From Geopsychrobacter electrodiphilus DSM 16401 (GTDB lineage: Bacteria > Desulfobacterota > Desulfuromonadia > Desulfuromonadales > Geopsychrobacteraceae): 64,000 nt of DNA. How positions within the stretch are numbered: the first letter of the stretch is position 1; each line of letters opens with the position of its first letter. Made by a program: the position numbers and the translations under genes. Under the pieces are notes generated by a model. The model saw only the letters and a list, made by a program, of their open reading frames with translations, was not told where the DNA came from and searched no databases. The stretch is taken from contig NZ_ARWE01000001.1 in the NCBI RefSeq assembly GCF_000384395.1, forward strand, positions 2,392,501-2,456,500. The letters run 5' to 3'. Below, one piece after another: positions 50,882-64,000 of the stretch.

Positions 50882-51484
50882 TTATTTTGCTTCTGAACAG
50901 GGGATACAGACCTGGCCTGCGGCAGTATCCTGCAACTTGTTGATGAAGGTCAACTCGCCACATTTGACACAGGGGTAGGCTTCAAAGACCCCTTTGCCCT
51001 GGGGTACCTCAACCTGCTTGATCGTGCTGATATTGAGGAATTTTTCTTCCGGCATCTTCAGAATGTTGTTCACCATCGGATCCGCCACTTCGGCTGGAAT
51101 ATTCTGCGGTGCCACGCCGGCCTTCCGTTGCTGAACAAACGGAGAATTCAGAGCATTGCTGAAGAATTCCGGTTTGAGCGAGACCCGCACAGAGCGGCCG
51201 GATTTGGCGTCGATCAGGGTGAAGGCCATCTTATTGTAATAGAGCTTCTTGATATTTGACTTGCCATAGGTGCATCCGGTCGCGGTCATCAGGCCATCAA
51301 GAAAACATCCGGCGGCATGCCCTTCTCCTGTTTCAGAGATCAGGCGCAGCTCTTTGTCCTGCGAGCGTTCAACGCCCAATGCCTTCATCGCCGCCAAACC
51401 GGCACGCAGCCCCATGGGCATGGCCGGGCATTTGTGTCCGTGAAATTTCATCCCAGTTTCAAACAGTTCATTCAGGTTTTCCAT
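50882..51484 (-). CDS. FmdE-family protein with C-terminal zinc ribbon, copy 2
   Basis: This 200-residue protein has an FmdE domain (about 1-150), with [22 protein letters not shown] and [23 protein letters not shown]-terminal zinc-ribbon-like part follows (CVKCGE then CIPCSEAK). The family is named after a subunit of formylmethanofuran dehydrogenase, but most bacterial members stand alone and their function is unknown. The conserved Cys and His residues suggest metal binding. It is a tandem paralogue of the gene at 51691. GAGGAG precedes the ATG, and the CDF gene follows by 11 bp. Confidence 0.88.
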
Positions 51485-51690: not shown

Positions 51691-52293
51691 TTATTTTTCT
51701 GCCGCGCAAGGAATACAGATCAAGCCATCCGCCGAATCTTGCAATTTGTTGACAAACGTCAGCTCCCAGCACCGGGCGCAGGGTTTGACATCGAACATTC
51801 CTTCCCCTTCAGGCAAATCGATCTGTTGGATTTCACCTATTTCGAGAAAATTCTCTTCGGCCAGATTAAGGATCTTCTCAACCTGAAAATCAACGTCTTC
51901 AGACGGAATATTCTGCGGCAAAACACCCGCCCGGCGCTGTAGAACAAACGGAGAGTTCAGTACCTGATTAAAAAAACTCGGTTTGAGGGAGACCCTTATT
52001 GACCGACCGGTCAAGGTGTCAATCAGGGTGAAGGCCATCTTGTTGTAATAGAGCTTCTGGATGTTCGACTTGCCATAGGTGCAACCAGTTGCGGTCATAA
52101 TACCGTCGACAAAGCAGCCAGCAACATGGCCAGCGCCCGTCTCTGACACCACGTGTAGTTCCTTGTCCCGGGAGTGCTCAACGCCGAGCGCATCCATGGC
52201 CGCCAGACCGGCGCGCAGCCCCATCGGCATGGCAGGGCATTTGTGACCGTGAAACTGCATGCCAGCTTCAAATAGATCATGTGCATTCATCAC
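51691..52293 (-). CDS. FmdE-family protein with C-terminal zinc ribbon, copy 1
   Basis: This 200-residue paralogue of the 50882 gene shares the FmdE core [43 protein letters not shown] and a zinc-ribbon-like tail (CARCWE and CIPCAAEK). The start is either GTG at 52293 or ATG at 52290, both 3' of GGAGG. It lies 17 bp after the ArsF-like gene. Because it is next to a decayed CDF copy, it belongs to the older duplicated unit that has lost its transporter. Its own reading frame is intact, so a function independent of the transporter is likely. Confidence 0.88.
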   Translation of the reverse strand: MMNAHDLFEAGMQFHGHKCPAMPMGLRAGLAAMDALGVEHSRDKELHVVSETGAGHVAGCFVDGIMTATGCTYGKSNIQKLYYNKMAFTLIDTLTGRSIRVSLKPSFFNQVLNSPFVLQRRAGVLPQNIPSEDVDFQVEKILNLAEENFLEIGEIQQIDLPEGEGMFDVKPCARCWELTFVNKLQDSADGLICIPCAAEK

Positions 52294-52309: not shown

Positions 52310-52741
52310 TTAGTTTTTCAGATAATCCGCGATCAAGTCGTGGACAAAGCTGACAAATTCCGGCTTCTGGTTCTCACCGAAATCCCAGAATTCCTCGACG
52401 TTCTTCCAACGCACCGGCTTGCCATCTTCTTCACGCACCAGCACCAGCGACTTGTCGGCAAGACCATAGTCCTTGATGTAATGCTTGTTCTCCGGCAGAT
52501 CAAAATTGATTAATTGCCACTGTAGTGAGCCGTTTGCCAGCTCTTTGGGGAAGGACTCCAACGCGGTTTTTGACCAGTCTTCAAAGGCCAGGCAGGTGCT
52601 GCAGCGCACATCGCCGTGAAAATAACGAACCAGCACCTGAGCTTGGGCCTGGCTCTGGCCGGGGGTAAAGCCCATCAGCAGTAATGGCAGGATGAAGGTC
52701 ATGATCAGAAGCTGAGCAATTTTCTTGTGCCGTTGTTGCAT
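52310..52741 (-). CDS. Exported thioredoxin-fold protein, ArsF-like
   Basis: This 143-residue protein has a signal peptide (IAQLLIMTFILPLLLMGFTPGQSQA). A short thioredoxin-like domain follows with HGDVRCSTCLAFEDW, a CxxC pair. Its C-terminal half is DKSLVLVREEDGKPVRWKNVEEFWDF. It matches proteins annotated as ArsF in arsenic clusters that also hold an ArsG-type membrane protein, as here. It likely shuttles electrons outside the inner membrane with the CcdA-like neighbour. The ATG at 52741 is chosen because GGGGGAGG lies upstream and the signal peptide follows. Confidence 0.85.
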   Translation of the reverse strand: MQQRHKKIAQLLIMTFILPLLLMGFTPGQSQAQAQVLVRYFHGDVRCSTCLAFEDWSKTALESFPKELANGSLQWQLINFDLPENKHYIKDYGLADKSLVLVREEDGKPVRWKNVEEFWDFGENQKPEFVSFVHDLIADYLKN

Positions 52742-52766
52742 GTTGTCGCCTCCCCCAAAAATGGTT

Positions 52767-53468
52767 TTATGCGGCCGTGTAGAGCAACCAGAAACCGCCG
52801 GCAATGACCAGGGTTCCGCAAACCCGTTTAATCCACTGAGTGCCTCTGGAGCCGGAGCTCCAGTTAAGATACTGCTGGACCTTTTCGGTAAAGGTCCCGG
52901 CAAAGACAATCACCGAGCAGTGGCCGACGCCGTAGGCGAACATCAAGGACGCGGCGAAGAGCATGCTGTGGTTCGCTTCGGTAAAAGCGACCCCGAGCAC
53001 CGGGCCCATAAAGGCGAAGGTGCAAGGGCCGAGGGCGACACCAAAGACCAACCCCAAAATCAAGGCGGCAAGCAGCCCCTTACGCCCTATATTGATCTTG
53101 CCCGGTCCCGACCAGGGCATGGGAAACAATCCCCAGAGATGCAGCCCGAACAGAAAGAAAATCGCCGCCACCAGCCAGTTGCCATAAACGCCGAGGTCAC
53201 CGAGCATCCGCCCGGCTAACGCAGTCAGCAGTCCGATCAGGGCGATGGAAAGCAGAATGCCGACCGCAAACAGGTTGGAAATCACAAACGCCCGGCGGAC
53301 ACTCATGCGCCCCTGGCCATCGATGAACCCGACGATCAGCGGAATGCTCGCCAGGTGGCAGGGGGAGAGCAGGATGCTCAGCACGCCCCAACCCACGGCG
53401 GCTGTCAGAGCAATGGCCGGGGCAGCGTAAACGCCATGGCTCAGGCTGGTCAGCAGTTGCTCGATCAT
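52767..53468 (-). CDS. CcdA/DsbD-like membrane electron carrier, ArsG-like
   Basis: This 233-residue protein has six or more helices and the CcdA-type motif LSPCHLASIPLIVGFI, plus a second-half ALGPCTFAFMGPVLGVAF. The paired cysteines of these two motifs carry electrons across the membrane from cytoplasmic thioredoxin to exported thiol proteins. The ATG at 53468 overlaps the thioredoxin-like stop by 4 bp (ATGA). Similar ArsG-family proteins are encoded in arsenic resistance clusters. With the ArsF-like and thioredoxin-like proteins it forms a complete transmembrane thiol relay. Confidence 0.88.
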   Translation of the reverse strand: MIEQLLTSLSHGVYAAPAIALTAAVGWGVLSILLSPCHLASIPLIVGFIDGQGRMSVRRAFVISNLFAVGILLSIALIGLLTALAGRMLGDLGVYGNWLVAAIFFLFGLHLWGLFPMPWSGPGKINIGRKGLLAALILGLVFGVALGPCTFAFMGPVLGVAFTEANHSMLFAASLMFAYGVGHCSVIVFAGTFTEKVQQYLNWSSGSRGTQWIKRVCGTLVIAGGFWLLYTAA

Positions 53469-53836
53469 TCCTTCGGTTCCGTAAAACGGTAGCCAAGCTC
53501 CTGCCACTTGTTGAGGATATCCTCGCGAGCAAAGAAGCCAGTATGCCGATAAAGTTCCTGACCTTCGGGGGCGAAAAAGATCTGGGTCGGGATCATCTGC
53601 ACACCGTAGCTGGCGGCCTCATCCCGATTTTTCCAGGCATCGACAAACTGAACCTCCAGACGTCCGGCGAAGTCGGTTTTGAGGGATTCCAGGATCGGCG
53701 CCATCTTGATACAGGGGATGCACTTGTCGGCGCCGACATCGACCAGCTTCGGCAGCGGGTTGGCCCAGGCAGTGCTCACCGGAAGCACCAAGACCAGCGC
53801 CAGGATAAGCAGTGTTTTCAATTTAGACATGGTCAT
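53465..53836 (-). CDS. Exported thioredoxin-family protein
   Basis: This 123-residue protein has a signal peptide (LKTLLILALVLVLPVSTAWA). A thioredoxin domain follows with the active site GADKCIPCIKMAP (CxxC) and the later cis-Pro region VQMIPTQIFF. It should act outside the inner membrane, receiving or passing electrons through the CcdA-like protein. It overlaps both neighbours by 4 bp, so the four-gene thiol block is tightly coupled. It carries a longer canonical thioredoxin fold than the ArsF-like protein. Confidence 0.9.
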   Translation of the reverse strand: MTMSKLKTLLILALVLVLPVSTAWANPLPKLVDVGADKCIPCIKMAPILESLKTDFAGRLEVQFVDAWKNRDEAASYGVQMIPTQIFFAPEGQELYRHTGFFAREDILNKWQELGYRFTEPKE

Positions 53837-54069
53837 TTCCCCAACAGTTTTTCAATCTCAGCTACCGCCGGGACCTTACCGGTCAGCAGTACCTTGCCGT
53901 CGACCGCGAGGCCCGGAGTGGTCATAACCCCGAAACTCATGATCTGGTTGATATCGGTGACCTTCTCCATTTGATAATCAAGGCCGAGGTTGTCGGCTGC
54001 CTGCTTGGCGCTTTCGGCCAACTTCTGACATTTGGCACAGCCGGTGCCGAGGATCTGAATCGTCTTCAT
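53833..54069 (-). CDS. Redox-active disulfide protein 2-type small thioredoxin
   Basis: This 78-residue cytoplasmic protein of the TM0996/MTH895 family begins MKTIQILGTGCAKCQKL, with a CxxC redox site. The cis-Pro loop is VMTTPGLAVDGKVLLTG. Such proteins are often encoded next to UPF0718 permeases, as here. The ATG at 54069 is supported by AAAAGGAG upstream. It overlaps the permease stop region and the thioredoxin-like start by 4 bp. It may deliver electrons or bind the substrate metalloid on the inner face. Confidence 0.9.
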   Translation of the reverse strand: MKTIQILGTGCAKCQKLAESAKQAADNLGLDYQMEKVTDINQIMSFGVMTTPGLAVDGKVLLTGKVPAVAEIEKLLGK

Positions 54070-54082
54070 GGTCAATCTCCTT

Positions 54083-55390
54083 TTAGAAAAATGCGCCAAA
54101 AATTAAACCGCTGACGGTCGCCATCACCATCACCAGCAGCACAAAAACCACAGTCTTTTTGGCCCCCATCACGCTGCGGATGACCAGCATATTCGGCAGC
54201 GACAGGGCCGGACCAGCGAGCAGCAAGGCCAGAGCGGGCCCCTTCCCCATTCCGGCGCCAATCAACCCCTGCAAAATTGGCACTTCGGTCAGGGTGGCGA
54301 AATACATGAAGGCCCCAAAGACCGAGGCGAACAGGTTAGCACCCAAAGAATTGCCGCCGACCAGCGAGGCGACCCAGGCCGAGGGGATAAGCCCTTCGTG
54401 CTCCGGACGACCAAGCAAAACCCCGGCGATCAGCACACCGATCAGCAAAAGCGGTAGAATTTTCTTGGCAAAATCCCAGCTCTCCTCGAACCAGGCGCCC
54501 ATCTCGCCGTCACGGGTGCTCTTTAAATTACTCAGCAGTGAAAGACCGATGACACCGAAGGTGAAGGCCAGTTCCGGGTGTTGCGGCAGAATGACCGCCA
54601 TCAACAGCGCCGGCAGACCAGCGAGCAGTATCCGACCGAAACCGAGCTTGAACCAGGTGGCGAGCATCACCGCCAGGGCGATGGAGAAGCCGGCAGTGAT
54701 CCACCATTTGGCAGCGTAGATATCATGCCAGAGGCCGCTAGTCTCAGCGGTCTTGCCCCAGTTGGCAAAGACCAGAATCCCGACCATGCTGGCAAAATAG
54801 AGCGCGGTCTGCCACAGCGGTCGACCTGCGTCCTCCTCACCCATAAGTGGTGCGGCGGCGGCTTTTTCGGCCTCCTCATGGCGGAAGAAGAAGTGCATCA
54901 GCAGGCCAATAATAACAGCGAAAAGGATGGCTCCAACCGCACGCGCAATGCCCATTTCGGGGCCAAGAATCCTCGCGGTCAAGACAATCGCCAGGATATT
55001 GATCGCCGGACCTGAGTAGAGAAAAGCGCAAGCCGGACCGAGACCGGCGCCCATGCGGTAAATACCTGCGAAGAGCGGCAGAATAGTGCAGGAGCAGACC
55101 GCGAGAATGGTGCCCGAGACCGCCGCCACGCCATAAGCGAGAAGTTTGTTGGCCTTGGGACCGAGATACTTCATCACCGCCGCCTGGCTGACGAAAACCG
55201 CCACCGCACCGGCGATAAAGAAAGCCGGCACCAGACAGAGCAGCACATGCTCACGCGCGTACCAGCGGACCAGATAGAGTGATTCGATCAGCGCCGCCTG
55301 CACCCGTGGCATATCAACCGGCAGGAAAAAACAGCCCGTAAAGACGACGATGATCCAGAAGAGTGGTTTCCACTCAGTTTTCCAATTCAT
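54083..55390 (-). CDS. UPF0718/DUF318 permease (ArsP-related)
   Basis: This 435-residue membrane protein has about ten helices. It shows VAAVSGTILAVCSCTILPLFAGIYRMGAGLGPACAFLYSGPAINI, the UPF0718 signature with a conserved CSC pair, and a second-half repeat GLIGAGMGKGPALALLLAGPALSLPNMLVIRS. Some members (ArsP) export trivalent organoarsenicals, but most have unknown substrates. It is the first gene after arsR, with a second ArsR-type half palindrome before it. A central charged loop (HEEAEKAAAAPLMGEEDAG) divides the halves. Confidence 0.9.
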   Translation of the reverse strand: MNWKTEWKPLFWIIVVFTGCFFLPVDMPRVQAALIESLYLVRWYAREHVLLCLVPAFFIAGAVAVFVSQAAVMKYLGPKANKLLAYGVAAVSGTILAVCSCTILPLFAGIYRMGAGLGPACAFLYSGPAINILAIVLTARILGPEMGIARAVGAILFAVIIGLLMHFFFRHEEAEKAAAAPLMGEEDAGRPLWQTALYFASMVGILVFANWGKTAETSGLWHDIYAAKWWITAGFSIALAVMLATWFKLGFGRILLAGLPALLMAVILPQHPELAFTFGVIGLSLLSNLKSTRDGEMGAWFEESWDFAKKILPLLLIGVLIAGVLLGRPEHEGLIPSAWVASLVGGNSLGANLFASVFGAFMYFATLTEVPILQGLIGAGMGKGPALALLLAGPALSLPNMLVIRSVMGAKKTVVFVLLVMVMATVSGLIFGAFF

Positions 55391-55913: not shown

Positions 55914-57128
55914 TTAGTAAGGAGAATCAAGTTCGCCTATCAGATGAATCGAGAGCTCTTCGCCAGCCTCAAACCGGCCACGTTCGGCAGGAAGAACCGC
56001 AATTCCATTAGCCCGCAGCATGGTACTCAGAATGCCGGTGTTCTGATCGCCGGAACTTGAAGCCAGCAGATGCTCGCCTGTATCAACCACCCGCACCCGT
56101 AAAAACTGGACCCGCCCCGGCTTCTTGCTGAAGTTCTCTTTCAGGCGTGCCTTGACATACGGTTTGATAAGCCGTGAATGTCCCATCATTTTCAGCAACG
56201 CCGGCCGCACAAATTCCTCAAAGGTGACCATCGACGAGACTGGATTACCCGGCAGCGAGAAGACTGGCGTGCCATCTTTAAAACTAAAGGCAGTCGGACG
56301 GCCGGGTTTGATGTCAATCTTCCAGAACAGCCGTTCGACCTTCAACTCCTGAAGCACCTCACAGACCAGATCACGATCCCCCATCGAGACCCCGGCGGTG
56401 GTGATCAACACGTCGGCTTTAAGGCCAGCAGTCAGTTTTTCCTTAAGGCTCTCATGGTCATCGCGGGCGATGCCTAGCAGCAAGGGCTCCGCGCCAACTT
56501 CGCGGATCGCAGCCGCCAGAGAATAGGCATTGCTGTTGATAATCTGTCCCGGGCCAAGGGGATCCCCAGGCTCGACAAGTTCGTCTCCGGTGGAGAGGAT
56601 TGCAACCCGGGGCCGCCGGATTACAGCGACCTGGCTGTAACCGAAGGCCGCAAGGATGTTGATCCCGGCCGGGAGCAGAATACTCCCCGCAGCGAGAACC
56701 TCCTCCCCCTGTTTGACATCTTCACCGCGCTTGCGGATGTGATCGCCGACCTGAACTGCCCCCTTGATAAAAACCTGATCGCCGTTCTCCTGTGTCTCCT
56801 CAACCGGAACAATCGTATCGCAGCCCATGGGGACCGGGGCACCGGTCATGATCCGCACCGCCGTCCCGGGTTTAACCTGAATACCCTCGGCGCTTGCGCC
56901 GGCAGGGATGTAGCCGTCGATCCGGAGCGGTTGATCCGTCCCGCAATCCTGACTGCGCACGGCAAAACCGTCCATGGCTGAATTGTCCCAACTGGGAAGA
57001 TCGCAGAGCGCACTGAGAGCGGAGGAGAGAATCCTGCCGCCGGCCTCAACCAGCGGTATCGATTCCGCCGGCAGAATCGATACTTTTTCGAGGATCAACG
57101 CTCTTGCAGATTCAAAACTTTCAGCCAT
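55914..57128 (-). CDS. moeA: Molybdopterin molybdotransferase MoeA
   Basis: This 404-residue enzyme inserts molybdate (or tungstate) into adenylylated molybdopterin. Diagnostic segments are DLPSWDNSAMDGFAVRSQD, GTAVRIMTGAPVPMGCDTIVPVEE, ILSTGDELVEPG, TTAGVSMGDRDLV and PVFSLPGNPVSSMVTFEEFVRP. The ATG at 57128 overlaps the end of the ABC ATPase gene by 8 bp and uses the AAGGAGG inside that gene as ribosome-binding site. Its place directly after tupABC suggests a form serving tungsten cofactor synthesis, though the protein itself does not show metal preference. Confidence 0.95.
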   Translation of the reverse strand: MAESFESARALILEKVSILPAESIPLVEAGGRILSSALSALCDLPSWDNSAMDGFAVRSQDCGTDQPLRIDGYIPAGASAEGIQVKPGTAVRIMTGAPVPMGCDTIVPVEETQENGDQVFIKGAVQVGDHIRKRGEDVKQGEEVLAAGSILLPAGINILAAFGYSQVAVIRRPRVAILSTGDELVEPGDPLGPGQIINSNAYSLAAAIREVGAEPLLLGIARDDHESLKEKLTAGLKADVLITTAGVSMGDRDLVCEVLQELKVERLFWKIDIKPGRPTAFSFKDGTPVFSLPGNPVSSMVTFEEFVRPALLKMMGHSRLIKPYVKARLKENFSKKPGRVQFLRVRVVDTGEHLLASSSGDQNTGILSTMLRANGIAVLPAERGRFEAGEELSIHLIGELDSPY

Positions 57129-57813
57129 ATTTTTCCTCCTTGGCAGGATTAAATTCAAAAGGTGAGAGGGGCCTGTCGAGAAGGCGTCCGTTTTCGATAC
57201 ACAGCATCTCACCACCCAGGCGCCCCGGTTGTGTCAGGTCGTGAGTTGACAAAATTACTGTGACTCCAAATTCAGGCAAGCGACTGAGCAGGGTTTCAAA
57301 CGACGCCAGGCTCTTGCTGTCAATATTTGATGTCGGCTCATCCAACAGCAACACTGCTGGTTCTAAAACCAGAGCACGCGCCAGCGCCACCCGTTGAATT
57401 TCGCCACCGGAAAGTTCTCTAGTTTTACGCTGTTCAAAGCCCTTAAGTCCAACCCTTTCCAGGGTCGCATTGATACGCCGATGTTGCTCTTTGCCGCGAA
57501 TACCCCGCAGTTTCAGCCCAAAGGCGAGATTATCCGACACGCTTCCCGCCAGGAGATAAGGGGACTGTTCAACCAGGGTGATCTTCTGCCGCTGCTGAGC
57601 CAGGCTTGCGGACTCCATATTGGAAAAAATGATTCTGCCTTTTTGGGGCACGATTAATAACGCCATGATCCTGAGCAGAGTACTTTTGCCCGCACCGTTC
57701 AGGCCAGTTAGAGCATAAATCCGTCTCGGCAGCAGCTCCAGGCTCTCTATTGACAGGCTGAAGTTCTCTCCTTGAGTGAACAGGATATCTTTGAGAACAA
57801 GGACCGGTTCCAT
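57121..57813 (-). CDS. tupC: Tungstate ABC transporter ATP-binding protein
   Basis: This 230-residue ABC ATPase shows Walker A GLNGAGKSTLLR near residue 37, the signature LSGGEIQRVALARAL near 134, Walker B VLLLDEPTSNID, and the H-loop STHDLTQ. It powers uptake through the TupB-like permease directly upstream. Its final codons carry the ribosome-binding site of moeA. Function is assigned by its neighbours, since ATPases of oxyanion transporters look alike. Confidence 0.92.
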   Translation of the reverse strand: MEPVLVLKDILFTQGENFSLSIESLELLPRRIYALTGLNGAGKSTLLRIMALLIVPQKGRIIFSNMESASLAQQRQKITLVEQSPYLLAGSVSDNLAFGLKLRGIRGKEQHRRINATLERVGLKGFEQRKTRELSGGEIQRVALARALVLEPAVLLLDEPTSNIDSKSLASFETLLSRLPEFGVTVILSTHDLTQPGRLGGEMLCIENGRLLDRPLSPFEFNPAKEEKYG

Positions 57814-57817
57814 CAGG

Positions 57818-58504
57818 TCACCTTTGCTGTAACAAGTTCAGAAACAGATTAACCACCAGAGCCACGCTTAACAGAACAATGCCAAGGGAGAGGCCAAAGG
57901 CAAATTCCCCCTTGCTGGTCTCTAGCGCGATCGCTGTGGTCATGGTGCGCGTCACACCACGAATATTGCCCCCGAGCATCATCGCCACGCCGACTTCGGC
58001 GATCACCCGGCCGAACCCGGCAATCACGGCGGCCATCACCCCGAAACGGATCTCCTTCAGCAGTTGATTCGCGGCCTGAAAGCGCGATGCCCCTAAGGTG
58101 ATGACCGTGCCCATGATTCGCGGATCAGAGCCATTGACAGCGGCCAGCACATAATTAGCCACAATCGGCGTGGCCAACACCGTCTGCCCGGCGATCATCG
58201 CCCAGGGAGTAAAGAGCAGCCCCAGACTACCGAGCGGTCCCTGCCGGCTGAAGACACCAAAAAGAACGAGTCCGACCACCACCGTCGGCAGCGCCATCAG
58301 GGTGTTGAGCAGGGTGATGATCAGGCGTCGGCCACGAAAGCGATCAATCCCCAACCATAGGCCAGCCGGAATCCCGACCAGCGCGGCGAACAGGATTGAA
58401 CAGCTCGACGTATAAAGGGAGGTCCAGACAGTAAGCTGGACCTCCCGATCAAAACTGAAAATCAGCCCGACGGCGGTAATAAATGAGTCGGCCAGATAGC
58501 CCAA
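57818..58504 (-). CDS. tupB: Tungstate ABC transporter permease
   Basis: This 228-residue protein has about five helices and the permease EAA-like loop near GASRFQAANQLLKEIRFGVMAAVIAGFGRVIAEVGVAMMLGGNI. The pattern, including RTMTTAIALETSKGEFAFGLSLGIVLL, matches TupB. It begins with TTG at 58504 preceded by AGGAG. It lies 4 bp before tupC and 9 bp after tupA, so all three are one transcript. Confidence 0.92.
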   Translation of the reverse strand: MGYLADSFITAVGLIFSFDREVQLTVWTSLYTSSCSILFAALVGIPAGLWLGIDRFRGRRLIITLLNTLMALPTVVVGLVLFGVFSRQGPLGSLGLLFTPWAMIAGQTVLATPIVANYVLAAVNGSDPRIMGTVITLGASRFQAANQLLKEIRFGVMAAVIAGFGRVIAEVGVAMMLGGNIRGVTRTMTTAIALETSKGEFAFGLSLGIVLLSVALVVNLFLNLLQQR

Positions 58505-58513
58505 AGTAACTCC

Positions 58514-59305
58514 TTATTGGACGTAAAACAGTTGTTCGCCGCTTCTGTGGTAGCCGGTGATCAAAGCCTTGCCCTCAGCTGAGGTCAGAAAGTCGATAAA
58601 TTTCTGTGCCAGTTTAACCTTGACGGCCGGGTGCCGCTTCGGATTGACCATAATAACACCATAAGGGTTGAACAGTCGTTTATTCCCTTCGACGACGATG
58701 TGCAGTGGGGTTTTTTCTTTAAAGGCCAGATAGGTGCCACGATCACTCAGGGTATAACCCTGACGCTCACCGGCCATGATGATAACCTGACCCATTCCGA
58801 GTCCGGCGTCCAGGTACCAGGAGCCGGCCGGGGTAATACCAGCCGCTTTCCAGAGTTGCTTTTCACGGGTATTGGTCCCCGAATCATCACCACGCGAGAC
58901 AAAAGTTGACTTGCTGCTGGCAATTTTACGCACGGCGGCTACGGGATCGCTGGTCCCTTTGATCTTGGCCGGATCACTATCAGGGCCGAGAATGACAAAA
59001 TCGTTATACATTACGTCACGCCGACCAACCCCGAACCCCGCGGCGACAAACTTGTCTTCCTTGCTGCGGGCATGCACCAGGACGACGTCAACGTCGCCGG
59101 TTTCGCCGAGCTTGAGTGCTTTGCCGGTGCCGACGGCGATCACATCGACCTTGCAGTCGTTGGCTTTTTCAAACGGCGGGAGTAGGTAGGCAAGCAGCCC
59201 TGAATTATCGGTCGAGGTGGTGGTCGCCAGACGCAGGTGCTCGGTGGCGAAGGCGGGTGTGGCGAGGAGCAGTAACAACAGGAAAATCGATAAACGACGA
59301 AACAT
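58514..59305 (-). CDS. tupA: Tungstate-binding protein TupA
   Basis: This 263-residue exported binding protein has a signal peptide (LSIFLLLLLLATPAFA) and then LRLATTTSTDNSGLLAYLLPPFEKAN. The TTTSTDNSGL segment is the TupA oxyanion-binding signature. Other family parts are GDVDVVLVHARSKEDKFVAAGFG and VSRGDDSGTNTREKQLW. It captures tungstate in the periplasm with high affinity in characterised relatives. The ATG at 59305 is chosen because the signal peptide follows and GGAG precedes it. A strong intercistronic hairpin lies 20 bp upstream. Confidence 0.95.
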   Translation of the reverse strand: MFRRLSIFLLLLLLATPAFATEHLRLATTTSTDNSGLLAYLLPPFEKANDCKVDVIAVGTGKALKLGETGDVDVVLVHARSKEDKFVAAGFGVGRRDVMYNDFVILGPDSDPAKIKGTSDPVAAVRKIASSKSTFVSRGDDSGTNTREKQLWKAAGITPAGSWYLDAGLGMGQVIIMAGERQGYTLSDRGTYLAFKEKTPLHIVVEGNKRLFNPYGVIMVNPKRHPAVKVKLAQKFIDFLTSAEGKALITGYHRSGEQLFYVQ

Positions 59306-59325
59306 GGAGGTTCTCCTTCGGATAA

Positions 59326-59349
59326 GGCCCCGGCAAAGCTGCCGGGGCC
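59326..59349 (-). promoter_or_regulatory. Strong intercistronic hairpin between porin and tupA
   Basis: GGCCCCGGCA and TGCCGGGGCC form a perfect 10-bp stem with a 4-base loop, 22 bp after the porin stop and 20 bp before the tupA ATG. No T run follows on the minus strand. It probably stabilises the porin mRNA or partly attenuates read-through, allowing unequal expression within one operon. Confidence 0.75.
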
Positions 59350-59371
59350 GTGCTTGATACAACCATAAAAA

Positions 59372-60622
59372 TCAATAATAGAACTGCGCCTGCAGGCGGA
59401 AGATGGTGTCATCCTTGTTGGCCGAACGGTTATCCGAAACCAGGGTGATGTCGGACTGAAGTTTTAGCGCCTGCTTGGCGAAGTAATAGTTGGCACCCAA
59501 CTGGGTTTCATGTTTATCGAACTTGGCCGAAGCGTTGGCGTCGGTTGATTTGATCGCCGAATAGCGTGCGCCCAACTCCAGAGTTTTTGGAATAACCTGA
59601 TATCCGGCCTGAACATAGTAGCCGTCGGCTGTCCAGCTGGCCCCGAGCTGCGGAGCAGCATTGAGGTTGTAGTACTCAGCGGCGAAGCTTGCGCCCATCC
59701 AGCGCGCGTTGACGTTGGCGGTTAATTGCCGCCAGGTCAGATCGGTACCATAGGCTGCGGTGAAGGTCGTCGGCGTCAAGCCGTCAAGATTAAGGGCCAC
59801 GTCCATCACGTCGTTATCAGTACCGAACTTTGTGCCGACATCGTTCGGTCCGACCTTCTCCCAGGCAAAGGAACCGCCGATATTCAGCAGCGGTTTGTCA
59901 GTCGCCCAACCGGCTTCGTCCATCTTGTAAGCGCCAAAGGGGTTGATGTCGACGCGGCCGGCGAGCATGTTATTATCGTCTGCGTTACTGACGTTCGGAC
60001 CGTTGCCATTAAACAGACCGATGCGGTAATCGATCAGCTTGTCGGCAAAGCTGCCTGCGGCCTGGATACCCTGGTCACGGCCGAGGTTGAAGGTATCATT
60101 GGCCAGCGAACGCTCAGGAAAAAGCTGCTTGCCAGCGCCGGTCAACTCCTGGCGCGCCTGCGGTGGCTTGAACTGGCCAACCTGCAGGGTCAGAGTCGGC
60201 GCAAACTTGTATTTAACGAAGACATCTTCAGTGCGGAAGCCGCTCGAAACGTCCCCCTGCAGCTTGTAGCCAAAGTTTTTACTGAACACGTTGCCGTCAA
60301 CCACCAACTTGAAGCGCCGGATATCGAAATCACTCTTGTTATCTTTTGCCGCATCATCCGTGTTGGTAAAACGGTAGATCAGCTGGGCGTAACCGCCGAT
60401 ATGCATCCTGGAGATGCCGTCCGAGCTGGTTGCAGTCAACCCCTTGCCCGGGGTGTATGCGACCGGGCTGCTCTTACTCACCTCTGCGTAATCGGCAGCC
60501 GTAATCACGCCCTTGTCTTTAAGAATGTCCTCCAGCGTCCGCGCCTGAGCATTCATCGCCGGCCAACACAGGAAAACCATCAACCCGCACAGGGCAACCC
60601 CCACCAATTTTTGCACTTTCAT
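59372..60622 (-). CDS. OprO/OprP-type outer-membrane porin
   Basis: This 416-residue protein has a signal peptide (VGVALCGLMVFLCWPAMNAQA). A beta-barrel with alternating polar and hydrophobic strands follows, ending in the aromatic FRLQAQFYY typical of outer-membrane proteins. Segments such as MHIGGYAQLIYRFTNTDDAAKDNKSDFDIRRFKLVVDG and FKYKFAPTLTLQVGQFKPP match the phosphate-selective OprO/OprP family. Next to tupABC, it may admit tungstate or molybdate, which are chemically like phosphate; this is inference. The ATG at 60622 follows GGAGGAC. Confidence 0.88.
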   Translation of the reverse strand: MKVQKLVGVALCGLMVFLCWPAMNAQARTLEDILKDKGVITAADYAEVSKSSPVAYTPGKGLTATSSDGISRMHIGGYAQLIYRFTNTDDAAKDNKSDFDIRRFKLVVDGNVFSKNFGYKLQGDVSSGFRTEDVFVKYKFAPTLTLQVGQFKPPQARQELTGAGKQLFPERSLANDTFNLGRDQGIQAAGSFADKLIDYRIGLFNGNGPNVSNADDNNMLAGRVDINPFGAYKMDEAGWATDKPLLNIGGSFAWEKVGPNDVGTKFGTDNDVMDVALNLDGLTPTTFTAAYGTDLTWRQLTANVNARWMGASFAAEYYNLNAAPQLGASWTADGYYVQAGYQVIPKTLELGARYSAIKSTDANASAKFDKHETQLGANYYFAKQALKLQSDITLVSDNRSANKDDTIFRLQAQFYY

Positions 60623-60752
60623 CTGTTTTGTCCTCCAAATATTAAATAACACGTAAGTCGCTCAAGCCAGTCCTGAGCCATTTATCAACAGCAGGTATCT
60701 GTTGAATTTTTCATATGTCTTTATTGCCGCCGAATACCTAAACCAGATCCTA

Positions 60753-61700
60753 TTATCGCGACTCCAAATGAAACCGCACCGGTAACAACACCTCACATGC
60801 TACCGGTTGATTGTTGGTTGAAGCAGGGACAAACTTCGCCCGCCTGACCGCAGCCAGGGCCGATTCATCAAACCCATAGCCGGCCGATTCGACCACCTCG
60901 GCAGATTGCAATTGTCCGGTCCTGCTCAGCCTCAGCCTCAAGACAACTCGCCCTTCGCGGCCCAGACGCCGGGCATGCAACGGATAGACCGGTCTTATGC
61001 TGCCCAGTACCCGAGGCCCGTTAGCGGCACCGAAATGGGTTAGCAGCGGCGACTCCACTGTGCCGCCACTAACCGCCGCTGAGCCATTCGCCGTTAAAGC
61101 GACGGGACTGGAGGCCTCCAGCATTGACCTGGGCATTGACCTGGGCGTTGACCCGGGCATCGACCCTGCCGTCACCAGCTGTCTCGCCGCCGGAGAGAAC
61201 TTTGCCGGAGGTGGTACAACTCTCGGAGGTGGTACAACTCTCGGCGGTGGTACAACTCTCGGCGGTGGTACAACTCTCGGAGGTGGTACAACTCTCGGCG
61301 GTGGTACAACTCTCGGCGACACCGGTTGAACACGATGGACGATTTGAGGCGCCGATTTCATCGGGATTAAGGTCCGCCTTGCTGCCGGCCGGGTCGTTAC
61401 AGACGAACGGCTCGGAGGCAAGCCCTGCAGCCAGAGAGCTGGTTGCTGGCTTGCACTTTTAAGGCGCACGGCAAATATCTGTGACCGACCAGGGAACAAC
61501 CTATTCAGCGGCGACCAAAATACCAGCAATAATCCTGCGTGCAGAACCAAAGAACAGAGCAAAAAAAACAGCAGTCCCCGATGCCGCCTGACTGGGTTCA
61601 ACTTCAGTTTCAGAAGCGACTGCCGCTGACCTGTCTCAAAGGAGAAGGCATAAGGTTCTATATGTGACTCAGGTCTCCGATCTGCAGAAGAAAGTCTCAT
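60753..61700 (-). CDS. TonB-family energy transducer with Val-Val-Pro-Pro-Pro-Arg repeats
   Basis: This 315-residue protein has an N-terminal helix (GLLFFLLCSLVLHAGLLLVFW) with the SLVLHA segment typical of TonB. A proline-rich periplasmic linker includes six VVPPPR repeats. A C-terminal TonB domain follows (YPLHARRLGREGRVVLRLRLSRTGQLQSAEVVESAGYGFDESAL). It passes proton-motive force to outer-membrane receptors. No ExbB, ExbD or TonB-dependent receptor is in the window. The ATG at 61700 is chosen because GGAGG lies six bases upstream. It lies between the porin and TiaS-like gene on the same strand, so its partner may be elsewhere. Confidence 0.88.
   Translation of the reverse strand: MRLSSADRRPESHIEPYAFSFETGQRQSLLKLKLNPVRRHRGLLFFLLCSLVLHAGLLLVFWSPLNRLFPGRSQIFAVRLKSASQQPALWLQGLPPSRSSVTTRPAARRTLIPMKSAPQIVHRVQPVSPRVVPPPRVVPPPRVVPPPRVVPPPRVVPPPRVVPPPAKFSPAARQLVTAGSMPGSTPRSMPRSMLEASSPVALTANGSAAVSGGTVESPLLTHFGAANGPRVLGSIRPVYPLHARRLGREGRVVLRLRLSRTGQLQSAEVVESAGYGFDESALAAVRRAKFVPASTNNQPVACEVLLPVRFHLESR
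61207..61314. repeat. Six 18-bp tandem repeats in the tonB-like gene
   Basis: The + strand unit is ggaggtggtacaactctc with only a/c variation at its third base, six copies in a row. On the coding strand each unit encodes Val-Val-Pro-Pro-Pro-Arg in frame. The near identity at DNA level indicates recent expansion. Copy number should vary among strains without frame loss. Confidence 0.97.
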
Positions 61701-61803
61701 CGGCGACCTCCACTTCGAGATACCGGGTTGACGGCGCATTGTCCTCAAGCCTCATTTTTGCATCCACGCTGGAGCTGTAAGTTCAATGACAAGGTCATTT
61801 GTT

Positions 61804-62547
61804 TCAATAGTTCTTCAACTGCTGCCGCGAACAGGTCCGCCATACCATCCCTCCCTGTTCGCGCACAGCTTCCAGCAACAGTACCGATTGCCCCTCCAAC
61901 AATACCGTTTTAATCTTCTCACCGAGCACAACCTCTTCACCGTCGGATGGCGTCAGTCCATCCAGGGTACGTACGCAGTCGACCAACGGGTGAGCGCGCA
62001 AGGCAGAAATCTTAATCCGCTCCGCCGGCATTCCGAAGCGCAGCTGCCCCTTGAGTCGTCCGTCGTTCCCCCCCAGACGCAGCCCGACACCTGCTAAAGC
62101 CCCAATCACCCCCTGACCTGTACCACCATGCTCGGAAAGGTGGATGTCCGTTTGGCGGGCCAGGGTATAGGCCTCATTCTTGGTCAATACCTGCTTTTTG
62201 GCTGCCCGACCAAAGGCGAGCAGAGCCGACTCATCACCCAGGTCGGCGGGAATCATTACACATAGACCAGGGTCGGATTCCGGAGCAGATTCCTGCAACA
62301 GGAAGCGTCCGGCATAATCAATAAATTGTTCCACTGGGCAGTTTTCATTGAGGGAAGCGGCGAAGCACATGGCGCTGTTGTGCGAGGTGTAAGGGATGTC
62401 GGGGTGAACCAGCAACTGATGACGCGTCACATAGCTGCTGCTGCCCCAGCCTTGTTCTTCAAGCTGAAGCGCCAGCATTGAAGCAAGCTCGCCGGTGCCG
62501 CGACTCTCGAGGTTATCGGTATCATCGATACAAACCAAAAGATTCAT
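61804..62547 (-). CDS. TiaS-like/COG1571-related protein of unknown role
   Basis: This 247-residue protein begins MNLLVCIDDTDNLESRGTGELA. The DDTDN-x-SRGTGE pattern is like the ferredoxin-like domain of archaeal tRNA-Ile2 agmatidine synthetase TiaS and related COG1571 proteins. Later GGTGQGVIGALAGVGLRLGGNDGR looks like a nucleotide-binding glycine-rich loop. The zinc ribbon and OB fold of full TiaS are missing. Bacteria use TilS for this tRNA step, so tRNA modification is unlikely. It overlaps the ECF S gene stop by 4 bp and is probably co-transcribed with the transporter. The function is not known. Confidence 0.7.
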   Translation of the reverse strand: MNLLVCIDDTDNLESRGTGELASMLALQLEEQGWGSSSYVTRHQLLVHPDIPYTSHNSAMCFAASLNENCPVEQFIDYAGRFLLQESAPESDPGLCVMIPADLGDESALLAFGRAAKKQVLTKNEAYTLARQTDIHLSEHGGTGQGVIGALAGVGLRLGGNDGRLKGQLRFGMPAERIKISALRAHPLVDCVRTLDGLTPSDGEEVVLGEKIKTVLLEGQSVLLLEAVREQGGMVWRTCSRQQLKNY

Positions 62548-63089
62548 TGTCTCCTCCCATTCGTGGCGGGGCTGAGCACGCTATAAGCCCTCAACCGACG
62601 TAAAACCGGTGGGATTCCCATGGCCCCGATACCACCAAAAGCCATGGCAGCAACAGCCTCAAGTAATGAATGGCGCCAGACAATGGCCGGATCCATGCCG
62701 ATCAATAAATCTAGCCCGGCGGTCCCAAAAAATTTACTCGCCCCGGCTACCGCACCAACCAGAGCACAGAGCAGAACGCTGCCGAACAGCCACGGCAGAA
62801 GCAAGGCACCAAGGTCGACTGCCAGTGCCGGCAACAGGAATTTGCTTATCACCAGGGGCCCACCTTTGCCCATCCCTAACAGAGCTGCGGCCATCCCGGC
62901 CAACAGGCCAGCGATACTGGCCGCACCACGAAACTGCACACAACCACGCGCCAACAAGAGGAAAAAAGCGGTAAAAAACATGGCATGACCTGAGATCCCC
63001 AGGTGCCAGCGCAAAGCGGCCTTGGTGATGATCAGCAACGCCGCACAGAAGCCGAGAAAAAGTGATTCTTTGAGGGATATTTGATTCAT
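62544..63089 (-). CDS. ECF-type transporter S component-like membrane protein
   Basis: This 181-residue protein has five to six hydrophobic helices (LFLGFCAALLIITKAALRW, AMFFTAFFLLLARGCV, AASIAGLLAGMAAALLGMG, LLPALAVDLGALLLPWLFG, LEAVAAMAFGGIGAMG). Size and the position directly after a T component and an ATPase mark it as the substrate-binding S unit of an energy-coupling-factor transporter. The vitamin or metal it binds cannot be told. It begins 2 bp after the T component stop. Confidence 0.75.
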   Translation of the reverse strand: MNQISLKESLFLGFCAALLIITKAALRWHLGISGHAMFFTAFFLLLARGCVQFRGAASIAGLLAGMAAALLGMGKGGPLVISKFLLPALAVDLGALLLPWLFGSVLLCALVGAVAGASKFFGTAGLDLLIGMDPAIVWRHSLLEAVAAMAFGGIGAMGIPPVLRRLRAYSVLSPATNGRRQ

Positions 63090-63091
63090 GA

Positions 63092-63772
63092 CTACGTCTC
63101 CTGATCATCCGGCCAACAGGTCCGGCGGGGAAAACGCCCAAATTCGCGGGTCCGGGCGGCACAAGATATATTATCCGCAATCTCAAGCGCCCGAACGACA
63201 ACCGGCGCCACCAGACAGTGCAGCAGATCGCCCCAGTGCCCAGGCCAGAGCTGATCCCGTGGTCTGATTCTGGCCCCACGTAACCTTTGGGCCTCGTAAA
63301 TTGCAGATATTTCCGTCAGCAAAAGGGGTAAAAATTTGAGCGAAGTTGTCAGGACAAAGGCACTTCGCGCCGGCAGGATCTTCCCCAGGGCGTTCAGCAT
63401 GCGACTGCCCGAATCTCCTGAGAGCAGGATCAATCCAGGCAAAAAGACCAATAACAACTGCCAACTGATCCTCAAACCAGGCATTAACCCCTGCGCCATG
63501 CCATAGCGCAACACATAGAGAGCGGTCACCATGCCACCCTGCCACAAACAGACTCGCCCCCCCCGCACCAGGACCTGGCGGTCCAGTCGATGGACAAACA
63601 ACAACGCCAGGTTGGCCACACTCAGACAACCGAGGGCTACCGGGTCCTGAGTGAGAATTGCTCCGAGAGACAGGAAGAAACAGAGACCAAGAGCCACCCC
63701 GGCAGAGAGTCGCGGAGGACTCTTCGGTTGCTTCCTGCGCAGTTGTTGAAACAGTAAGCTAGTGCCGGACAA
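63092..63772 (-). CDS. ECF transporter T component (EcfT/CbiQ family)
   Basis: This 226-residue membrane protein has about five helices and the EcfT coupling region with AIYEAQRLRGARIRP, in which the A-R-G segment contacts the ATPases. It starts with TTG at 63772 preceded by AGGAGG. It overlaps the ATPase gene by 14 bp. Together with the S unit and the ATPase it makes an ECF transporter. Confidence 0.85.
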   Translation of the reverse strand: MSGTSLLFQQLRRKQPKSPPRLSAGVALGLCFFLSLGAILTQDPVALGCLSVANLALLFVHRLDRQVLVRGGRVCLWQGGMVTALYVLRYGMAQGLMPGLRISWQLLLVFLPGLILLSGDSGSRMLNALGKILPARSAFVLTTSLKFLPLLLTEISAIYEAQRLRGARIRPRDQLWPGHWGDLLHCLVAPVVVRALEIADNISCAARTREFGRFPRRTCWPDDQET

Positions 63773-64000
63773 GACGTCCTCCTGTTATCCCCAAGGTGAC
63801 ATGATTCCACTCACCATCCTGTGGCGGGTGATGACTCGTCCAGAGAATTGTCGTCCCGCGTTCTTTAACGCACAGCTGCAGAGTTGCCATCACCTGTCCC
63901 GCCGTCACCGGGTCAAGCCCCGCCAATGGGTCGTCAAGCAACAGCAGTTCCGGTTCCCGGGCCAGTACCGACGCCAGGGCGACCAGATGCTGCTGGCCGT
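63759..64000 (-). CDS. ECF transporter ATP-binding subunit, 5' end outside window
   Basis: About 80 C-terminal codons are present. They include the end of the ABC signature (GQQHLVALASVLAREP), Walker B (LLLLDDPLAGLDP) and the H-loop area (ILWTSHHPPQDGEW). The rest, with Walker A, lies past the right edge. It overlaps the T component by 14 bp. Short C-terminus and gene order fit an ECF A subunit serving T and S. Confidence 0.9.
   Translation of the reverse strand, partial: GQQHLVALASVLAREPELLLLDDPLAGLDPVTAGQVMATLQLCVKERGTTILWTSHHPPQDGEWNHVTLGITGGRLVRH

Follow-up and report, generated by a model that had tools for sequence, protein, structure and literature searches.

The 64,000-nucleotide stretch of the Geopsychrobacter electrodiphilus DSM 16401 genome analyzed here (contig NZ_ARWE01000001.1, positions 2,392,501 to 2,456,500; hereafter, the window) raises the question of what a bacterial relative of TiaS, the archaeal tRNA(Ile2) 2-agmatinylcytidine synthetase, does beside an ECF transporter. 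A sequence-only reading had placed near the end of the window a DDTDN protein whose gene overlaps that of the transporter's S component by 4 bp, and had suggested that the two are coupled in vitamin or metal import, with ATP-dependent modification of the imported compound. Both reading frames are found there, and the overlap with ecfS, ATGA at 62547-62544 with GGAGG upstream of the TiaS-like start, bears out the coupling.

The operon is not confined to the window and runs on for about 8 kb upstream and about 6 kb downstream; genes beyond the end of the window were read from locus L002 (window position = L002 position + 54000). In order of transcription, all on the minus strand, it comprises the riboswitch, AOR, MoaD-like/WorX, MoeB/ThiF, ModE, TonB receptor, ECF AA-T-S, TiaS-like, TonB, porin, TupA, TupB, TupC and MoeA. 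The features, in window numbering, are as follows.

72661-73563 (beyond the window), plus strand: MoSto, divergent at the cluster head; 1e-60 to the solved beta subunit
71872-71990 (beyond the window), minus strand: Moco/Tuco riboswitch, RF01055
70107-71846 (beyond the window), minus strand: AOR
69397-70002 (beyond the window), minus strand: MoaD-like/WorX protein
68295-69122 (beyond the window), minus strand: MoeB/ThiF
67323-68135 (beyond the window), minus strand: ModE
65135-67198 (beyond the window), minus strand: TonB receptor
63759-65129 (in-window part 63759..64000), minus strand: ECF double ATPase, 456 aa, two ABC domains
63092..63772, minus strand: ECF T component, CbiQ family, 226 aa; Pfam CbiQ 42.6 bits, cut-off 25
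62544..63089, minus strand: ECF S component, 181 aa; no Pfam/NCBIfam family
62544..62547, minus strand: ATGA overlap of the ecfS stop and the TiaS-like start, translational coupling
61804..62547, minus strand: TiaS-like protein, 247 aa, with a TCKD-type kinase domain (about 1-158) and a small beta-rich C-terminal part, as indicated by profile, model and alignment
60753..61748, minus strand: TonB, 331 aa; Pfam TonB_C 1.3e-21
59372..60652, minus strand: OprO/P-type porin (Porin_O_P), 426 aa; Pfam 2.6e-26
58514..59362, minus strand: TupA-like tungstate-binding protein; NF041772 E=1.7e-66, 224 bits against an equivalog cut-off of 400
57818..58504, minus strand: TupB-like permease; NF041773 E=5e-62, 210 bits against a cut-off of 320
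57121..57813, minus strand: TupC-like ATPase, assigned mainly by position; NF041774 E=5.5e-34, 118 bits against a cut-off of 400
55914..57215, minus strand: MoeA, metal insertase of Moco/Tuco synthesis; NF007960 E=1.7e-112

The riboswitch (67.6 bits) is the sole copy of RF01055 in the 4.24-Mb genome. It lies 26 nt before AOR, with about 9 kb separating it from the TiaS-like gene, and is missing the P3 stem, a form that Regulski et al. found almost exclusively in tungsten-cofactor users (PMC2408646). A ModE-like palindrome with 2 mismatches to the consensus printed for Geobacter (PMC2700814) stands 26 nt before modE, with 0.01 such sites expected, and class I tungsten oxidoreductases have been described with this same arrangement of AOR beside WorX and ThiF (PMC13328260). 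Because all three Tup genes score under the NCBIfam equivalog cut-offs, "Tup-like" stands here for homology plus gene order and does not amount to proof of tungstate specificity; tungsten and molybdenum are separated only by the P3-lacking riboswitch, the AOR and the Tup-like genes. Together, the riboswitch, the ModE box, AOR/WOR with WorX and ThiF, MoeA, the TupABC-like genes and the divergent MoSto mark the cluster, almost certainly, as a module for the acquisition and use of tungsten (or molybdenum).

Some further features of this region were recorded. Two tandem FmdE-family proteins (50882-51484 and 51691-52293, minus strand), about 4 kb beyond MoeA, may be W/Mo-linked too, FmdE being named after the molybdenum formylmethanofuran dehydrogenase operon; between them and MoeA (52310-55390, minus strand) lie genes for an exported protein without a Pfam family, a DsbD_TM protein and an ArsP_1 permease. 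Within the TonB receptor gene, an array of 21 GCC/CCA-type triplets (L002:11990-12052) encodes a long glycine run; as the array is in frame, changes in copy number would alter the length of a loop and not switch the gene on or off.

The association extends to relatives. Of 395 genomes sampled from the phylum, 32 encode a homologue of the TiaS-like protein, while the few other sampled members of the organism's own class have none. At least 546 stretches of named genomes also carry one, from Desulfuromonadales, Firmicutes (Sporomusa, Neobacillus), Kiritimatiellales and Burkholderiales among others; the named-genome set used here, the best 80 of at least 546, leans to close relatives. The single annotated record looked at calls the family "hypothetical protein." In the unbiased set, W/Mo genes lie near the TiaS-like gene in 16 of 28 loci, compared with 3 of 40 random stretches drawn from five genomes, the window's own included (p=1.3e-5). 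MoSto at 42-49% identity occurs in 12 of these 28 loci, usually as the next gene on the same strand, and in 0 of the 40 control stretches, where the sole match is weak (6.7e-9). An AFOR_C protein is encoded by all 32 homologue-positive genomes, compared with 310 of 395 overall; the chance of this, (310/395)^32, is about 4e-4.

The riboswitch follows the same pattern, being present in 13 of the 28 related loci scanned and absent from 11 random control stretches and from the 64-kb window itself. It heads the TiaS-like operon in nine loci (L061, L075, L084, L098, L105, L106, L112, L113 and L121) and the EcfAA-EcfT-EcfS operon in three (L061, L068 and L075). RF01055 was found in 14 of 19 genomes at about one per 0.4 Mb, which corresponds to about 0.05 expected per 20-kb locus, and in 13 of these 14 genomes one falls at the TiaS-like locus. 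None was found in seven loci of a second branch of the family, in which the TiaS-like gene accompanies MoSto and TupABC-like genes, usually without a TonB-dependent receptor (TBDR).

The transporter has the makeup of a group I ECF system, its operon encoding two ABC ATPase domains together with a T component of the CbiQ type. Its S component, for which no Pfam or NCBIfam family was found, was modeled as an all-helical membrane protein (pLDDT 88), and its top Foldseek hits are S components (5edl, ThiT and RibU; TM 0.6-0.67). G34-H35 is conserved, and the homologues have in common an invariant Asp92 and the motif L-[HP]-L-H-x-P-G-H. Most ECF transporters import vitamins, as do the systems to which these best hits belong, and the ECF could accordingly import a vitamin (a corrinoid or thiamin, say) that the kinase modifies, the closeness of tungsten genes being coincidental. 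The structural hits, however, reach only E=1e-3 at 16% identity, the riboswitch on the operons is RF01055, and W/Mo genes are enriched near the TiaS-like gene; no cobalamin riboswitch was found in the 28 related loci and no vitamin riboswitch is attached to the TiaS-like/ECF operons, the single TPP and Na+ riboswitch matches in L107 and L084 lying elsewhere. Vitamin import is therefore very improbable. A corrinoid ligand was rejected also because the binding protein of the FecBCD-type transporters found in relatives is far closer to MolA (HI_1472; 3.8e-47, second after an uncharacterised chain) than to BtuF (only about 1e-8 to 1e-11). The metal part of the original suggestion stands, by virtue of the W/Mo gene context and RF01055, while its vitamin part does not, and the ECF transporter probably imports a tungsten or molybdenum species.

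NCBIfam models, profile searches against the PDB and AlphaFold2/Foldseek agree that the DDTDN protein is related to TiaS, as had been claimed. The best-scoring named family is Mmp11 (methanogenesis marker protein 11, TIGR03280; E=2.6e-11, 43.2 bits, below the curated cut-off of 255.8), matched only over profile positions 135-282, to the exclusion of the N-terminal part, followed by TiaS (NF040849; E=1.5e-7, 30.4 bits, under the equivalog cut-off of 600) and Pfam TiaS_TCKD (E=0.0056, below cut-off). A profile of 25 homologues matched PDB entry 3u02 at 6e-13 and TiaS structures at about 3e-11, over residues 1-155 only, and every one of the nine Foldseek hits of the AlphaFold2 model (pLDDT 91.2, pTM 0.86) at E<0.001 is a TiaS chain. 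The conserved domain is the Thr18-Cyt34 kinase domain (TCKD), with its DDTD and Thr18, instead of the FLD-type domain first proposed. The other TiaS domains are absent, as had been noted: the profile match ends at residue 155, neither it nor Pfam detected FLD, OB-fold or zinc ribbon in the 247-aa protein, and the small beta-rich part at residues 160-247 had no match in the searches made.

Asp8, Asp9, Thr10, Asp11, Thr18 and Gly19 are invariant across 104 TiaS-like sequences, and in the profile alignment Thr18 falls on the same-numbered TiaS residue, reportedly the one that TiaS phosphorylates on itself; these residues argue for an ATP-using enzyme. The TiaS segment YKTRGNG is replaced by YTSHNS with invariant His56, Asn57 and Ser58, which suggests a substrate unlike that of TiaS. 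Cys61 is invariant in all bacterial sequences seen and is Thr in the haloarchaeal homologue. Conservation of His56, Asn57, Ser58 and Cys61 is partly by construction, as this segment was the search pattern of the named-genome scan; the loci of the phylum sample, chosen without that pattern, agree. By sequence, then, the protein is built on a TiaS-type kinase core, yet is not TiaS, and it is the fold and the invariant residues that suggest an enzymatic role for the predicted kinase. Homology to the TiaS kinase domain and the retained Thr18 would also suit a minimal TiaS modifying tRNA or another RNA, a reading that is exceedingly improbable given that the OB-fold and zinc ribbon were not detected, the YKTRGNG segment is replaced, and the neighborhood is one of W/Mo genes, not of translation. 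Apparent fusions of the TiaS-like domain to another domain in L012, L013 and L015 (470-aa open frames) were dismissed as over-extended ORF calls.

The substrate could instead be the pyranopterin (MPT or Tuco), phosphorylated or adenylylated by the TiaS-like protein in place of any metal species. Riboswitch, MoeA, MoaE and AorDE/ThiF are all among the neighbors, and HPPK pterin kinases come next, if weakly, behind TiaS in the fold comparison. Those matches (E>=0.006, TM about 0.25) are too weak to be read as a sign of a pterin substrate and mean only a common ferredoxin-like fold, and the tightest neighbors are transporters and MoSto, not MPT synthesis genes. We consider this reading unlikely and prefer metal handling to pterin chemistry because the closest partners are importers and a metal store.

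Homologues co-occur with ECF genes, as the original proposal implied, in 38 of 105 loci, and 92 of the 105 show ECF, MolA-like FecBCD, Tup, MoSto or a TonB receptor, the other 13, some on short contigs, having no recognised partner. ECF and MolA-like transporters are alternatives, almost never found in one locus (ECF in 36, MolA-like in 37 and both in 2 of the 105, with about 14 expected to have both; Fisher p=7.5e-8, which ignores relatedness). At least five switches were counted on the tree and a phylogenetic sign test had too few informative pairs and lacks power; the exclusivity is partly common ancestry. Because the TiaS-like gene stays while the transporter changes, its role would lie after import and not in one transporter.

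What that role acts on depends on the form in which the metal arrives. The ligands of TonB receptors and of FecBCD/ECF transporters are usually bulky organic molecules, and the modification of an imported compound can be made specific as follows: the TonB receptor and ECF/FecBCD import chelated W/Mo, and the TiaS-like kinase phosphorylates the organic chelator so that the metal is freed. A TBDR lies near the TiaS-like gene in many Gram-negative loci, and TiaS itself reportedly phosphorylates an organic carbonyl oxygen. Release from a chelator is nevertheless rather unlikely, as the second branch pairs the gene with MoSto and TupABC-like genes, usually without a TBDR, and no chelator-synthesis genes were noticed near the TiaS-like gene. 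The gene is thus also found in the company of MoSto/TupABC and not of ECF, so that action on the metal or on its store would fit at least as well as modification of an imported compound.

Other recurrent or unusual neighbors were seen in the relatives. The TiaS-like gene is adjoined in L102 (10806-11063), L107 (10708-11001), L113 (10767-11039) and 8 other loci by a gene for a small protein (80-98 aa) that contains a CYNCRYRRW...C motif and belongs to no Pfam family. In Firmicutes, exported proteins with Big_5 Ig-like domains head or follow the Moco/Tuco riboswitch in the operon of FecCD, ABC, binding protein and TiaS-like genes (L098:5998-6834, L105:6148-7026, L084:6069-6977 and others), perhaps as a Gram-positive surface capture protein replacing the TonB receptor, and in Geobacter-type ECF loci the TonB receptor has fibronectin type III proteins beside it (L069:14978-16231, L064:9937-11370). 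Syntrophomonas loci L138 and L139 have two or three adjacent ORFs related to the TiaS-like gene, either tandem copies or a broken gene. A haloarchaeal homologue (Natribaculum, L182:6953-7717, plus strand) is oriented divergently from a FecBCD-type transporter, the binding protein of which is similar to 2etv and not to MolA. The locus showed no W/Mo gene and was therefore treated as neutral and not as W/Mo support.

As a whole, the locus is best explained, with somewhat more confidence than doubt, as a W/Mo module in which TonB receptor, TonB and ECF effect import and a cytosolic, ATP-using TiaS-like enzyme acts just after uptake. The TonB receptor and TonB would carry a W/Mo species through the outer membrane and the ECF complex (AA-T-S) would carry it through the inner membrane, ECF probably filling here the role of the MolA-like FecBCD transporter in relatives. 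The TiaS-like protein, whose substrate would not be tRNA, might then use ATP to activate or release the imported species for storage in MoSto or insertion by MoeA. The assignment of an ATP-dependent post-import step to this protein is tentative, somewhat short of an even chance. More tentative still is a broader proposal. ECF transporters whose S component is of the LHLPGH type would form a new W/Mo importer class, with TonB driving passage across the outer membrane, and the TiaS-like protein would be the first kinase of TiaS descent to serve metal metabolism, its target in bacteria and archaea being a W/Mo species that has just been imported; Mmp11 of methanogens may have the same function.

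A W/Mo role of an ECF transporter or of a TiaS-like protein was not found described in the open-licence PMC literature, and searches there on methanogenesis marker 11, TiaS with molybdenum and ECF with tungsten returned nothing relevant. The handling of tungsten between membrane importer and cofactor is an open question, and a 2025 study of tungsten storage states that it is not clear how the metal gets from its store to the cofactor (PMC11980592). The module gives a conserved, putatively ATP-using candidate for that step, together with a kind of importer that had not been linked to W/Mo before and a TonB-driven passage through the outer membrane; if this is true, it is also the first functional lead for Mmp11.

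Among known systems, TiaS (PDB 3amt, 3amu, 4rvz, 5xob) has the kinase-domain fold in common with the TiaS-like protein, DDTD and Thr18 being in register, whereas the latter is bacterial, has a W/Mo gene context, shows no detectable FLD, OB-fold or zinc ribbon and has TSHNS in place of KTRGNG. Mmp11, whose methanogen carriers are W/Mo users, scores best over the kinase core and has about 134 N-terminal profile positions absent from the TiaS-like protein. MoSto, the conserved and often adjacent neighbor in one TiaS-like branch, is likewise an ATP user but has an unrelated amino-acid-kinase fold. Group I ECF transporters of the CbiMNQO, NikMNQO and YkoEDC type likewise have the S-component fold and a single operon of dedicated A, T and S genes; here, the S component matches no described S family, regulation is predicted to be by W/Mo instead of vitamin, Co or Ni, and the transporter's gene partners include a TonB receptor and a kinase-like protein. 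In the non-ECF version of the module, found in relatives and not in the G. electrodiphilus genome, the binding protein matches MolA (HI_1472) of the Haemophilus molybdate/tungstate transporter MolBCA (HI_1470-1472), second to the uncharacterised chain. Finally, a 2025 paper names three types of W/Mo ABC importer, Tup, Wtp and Mod, and no ECF type (PMC11980592); TupABC, WtpABC and ModABC are oxyanion importers with classical binding proteins, unlike ECF, and the Tup-like genes share a predicted regulon and the locus with the ECF and TiaS-like genes.
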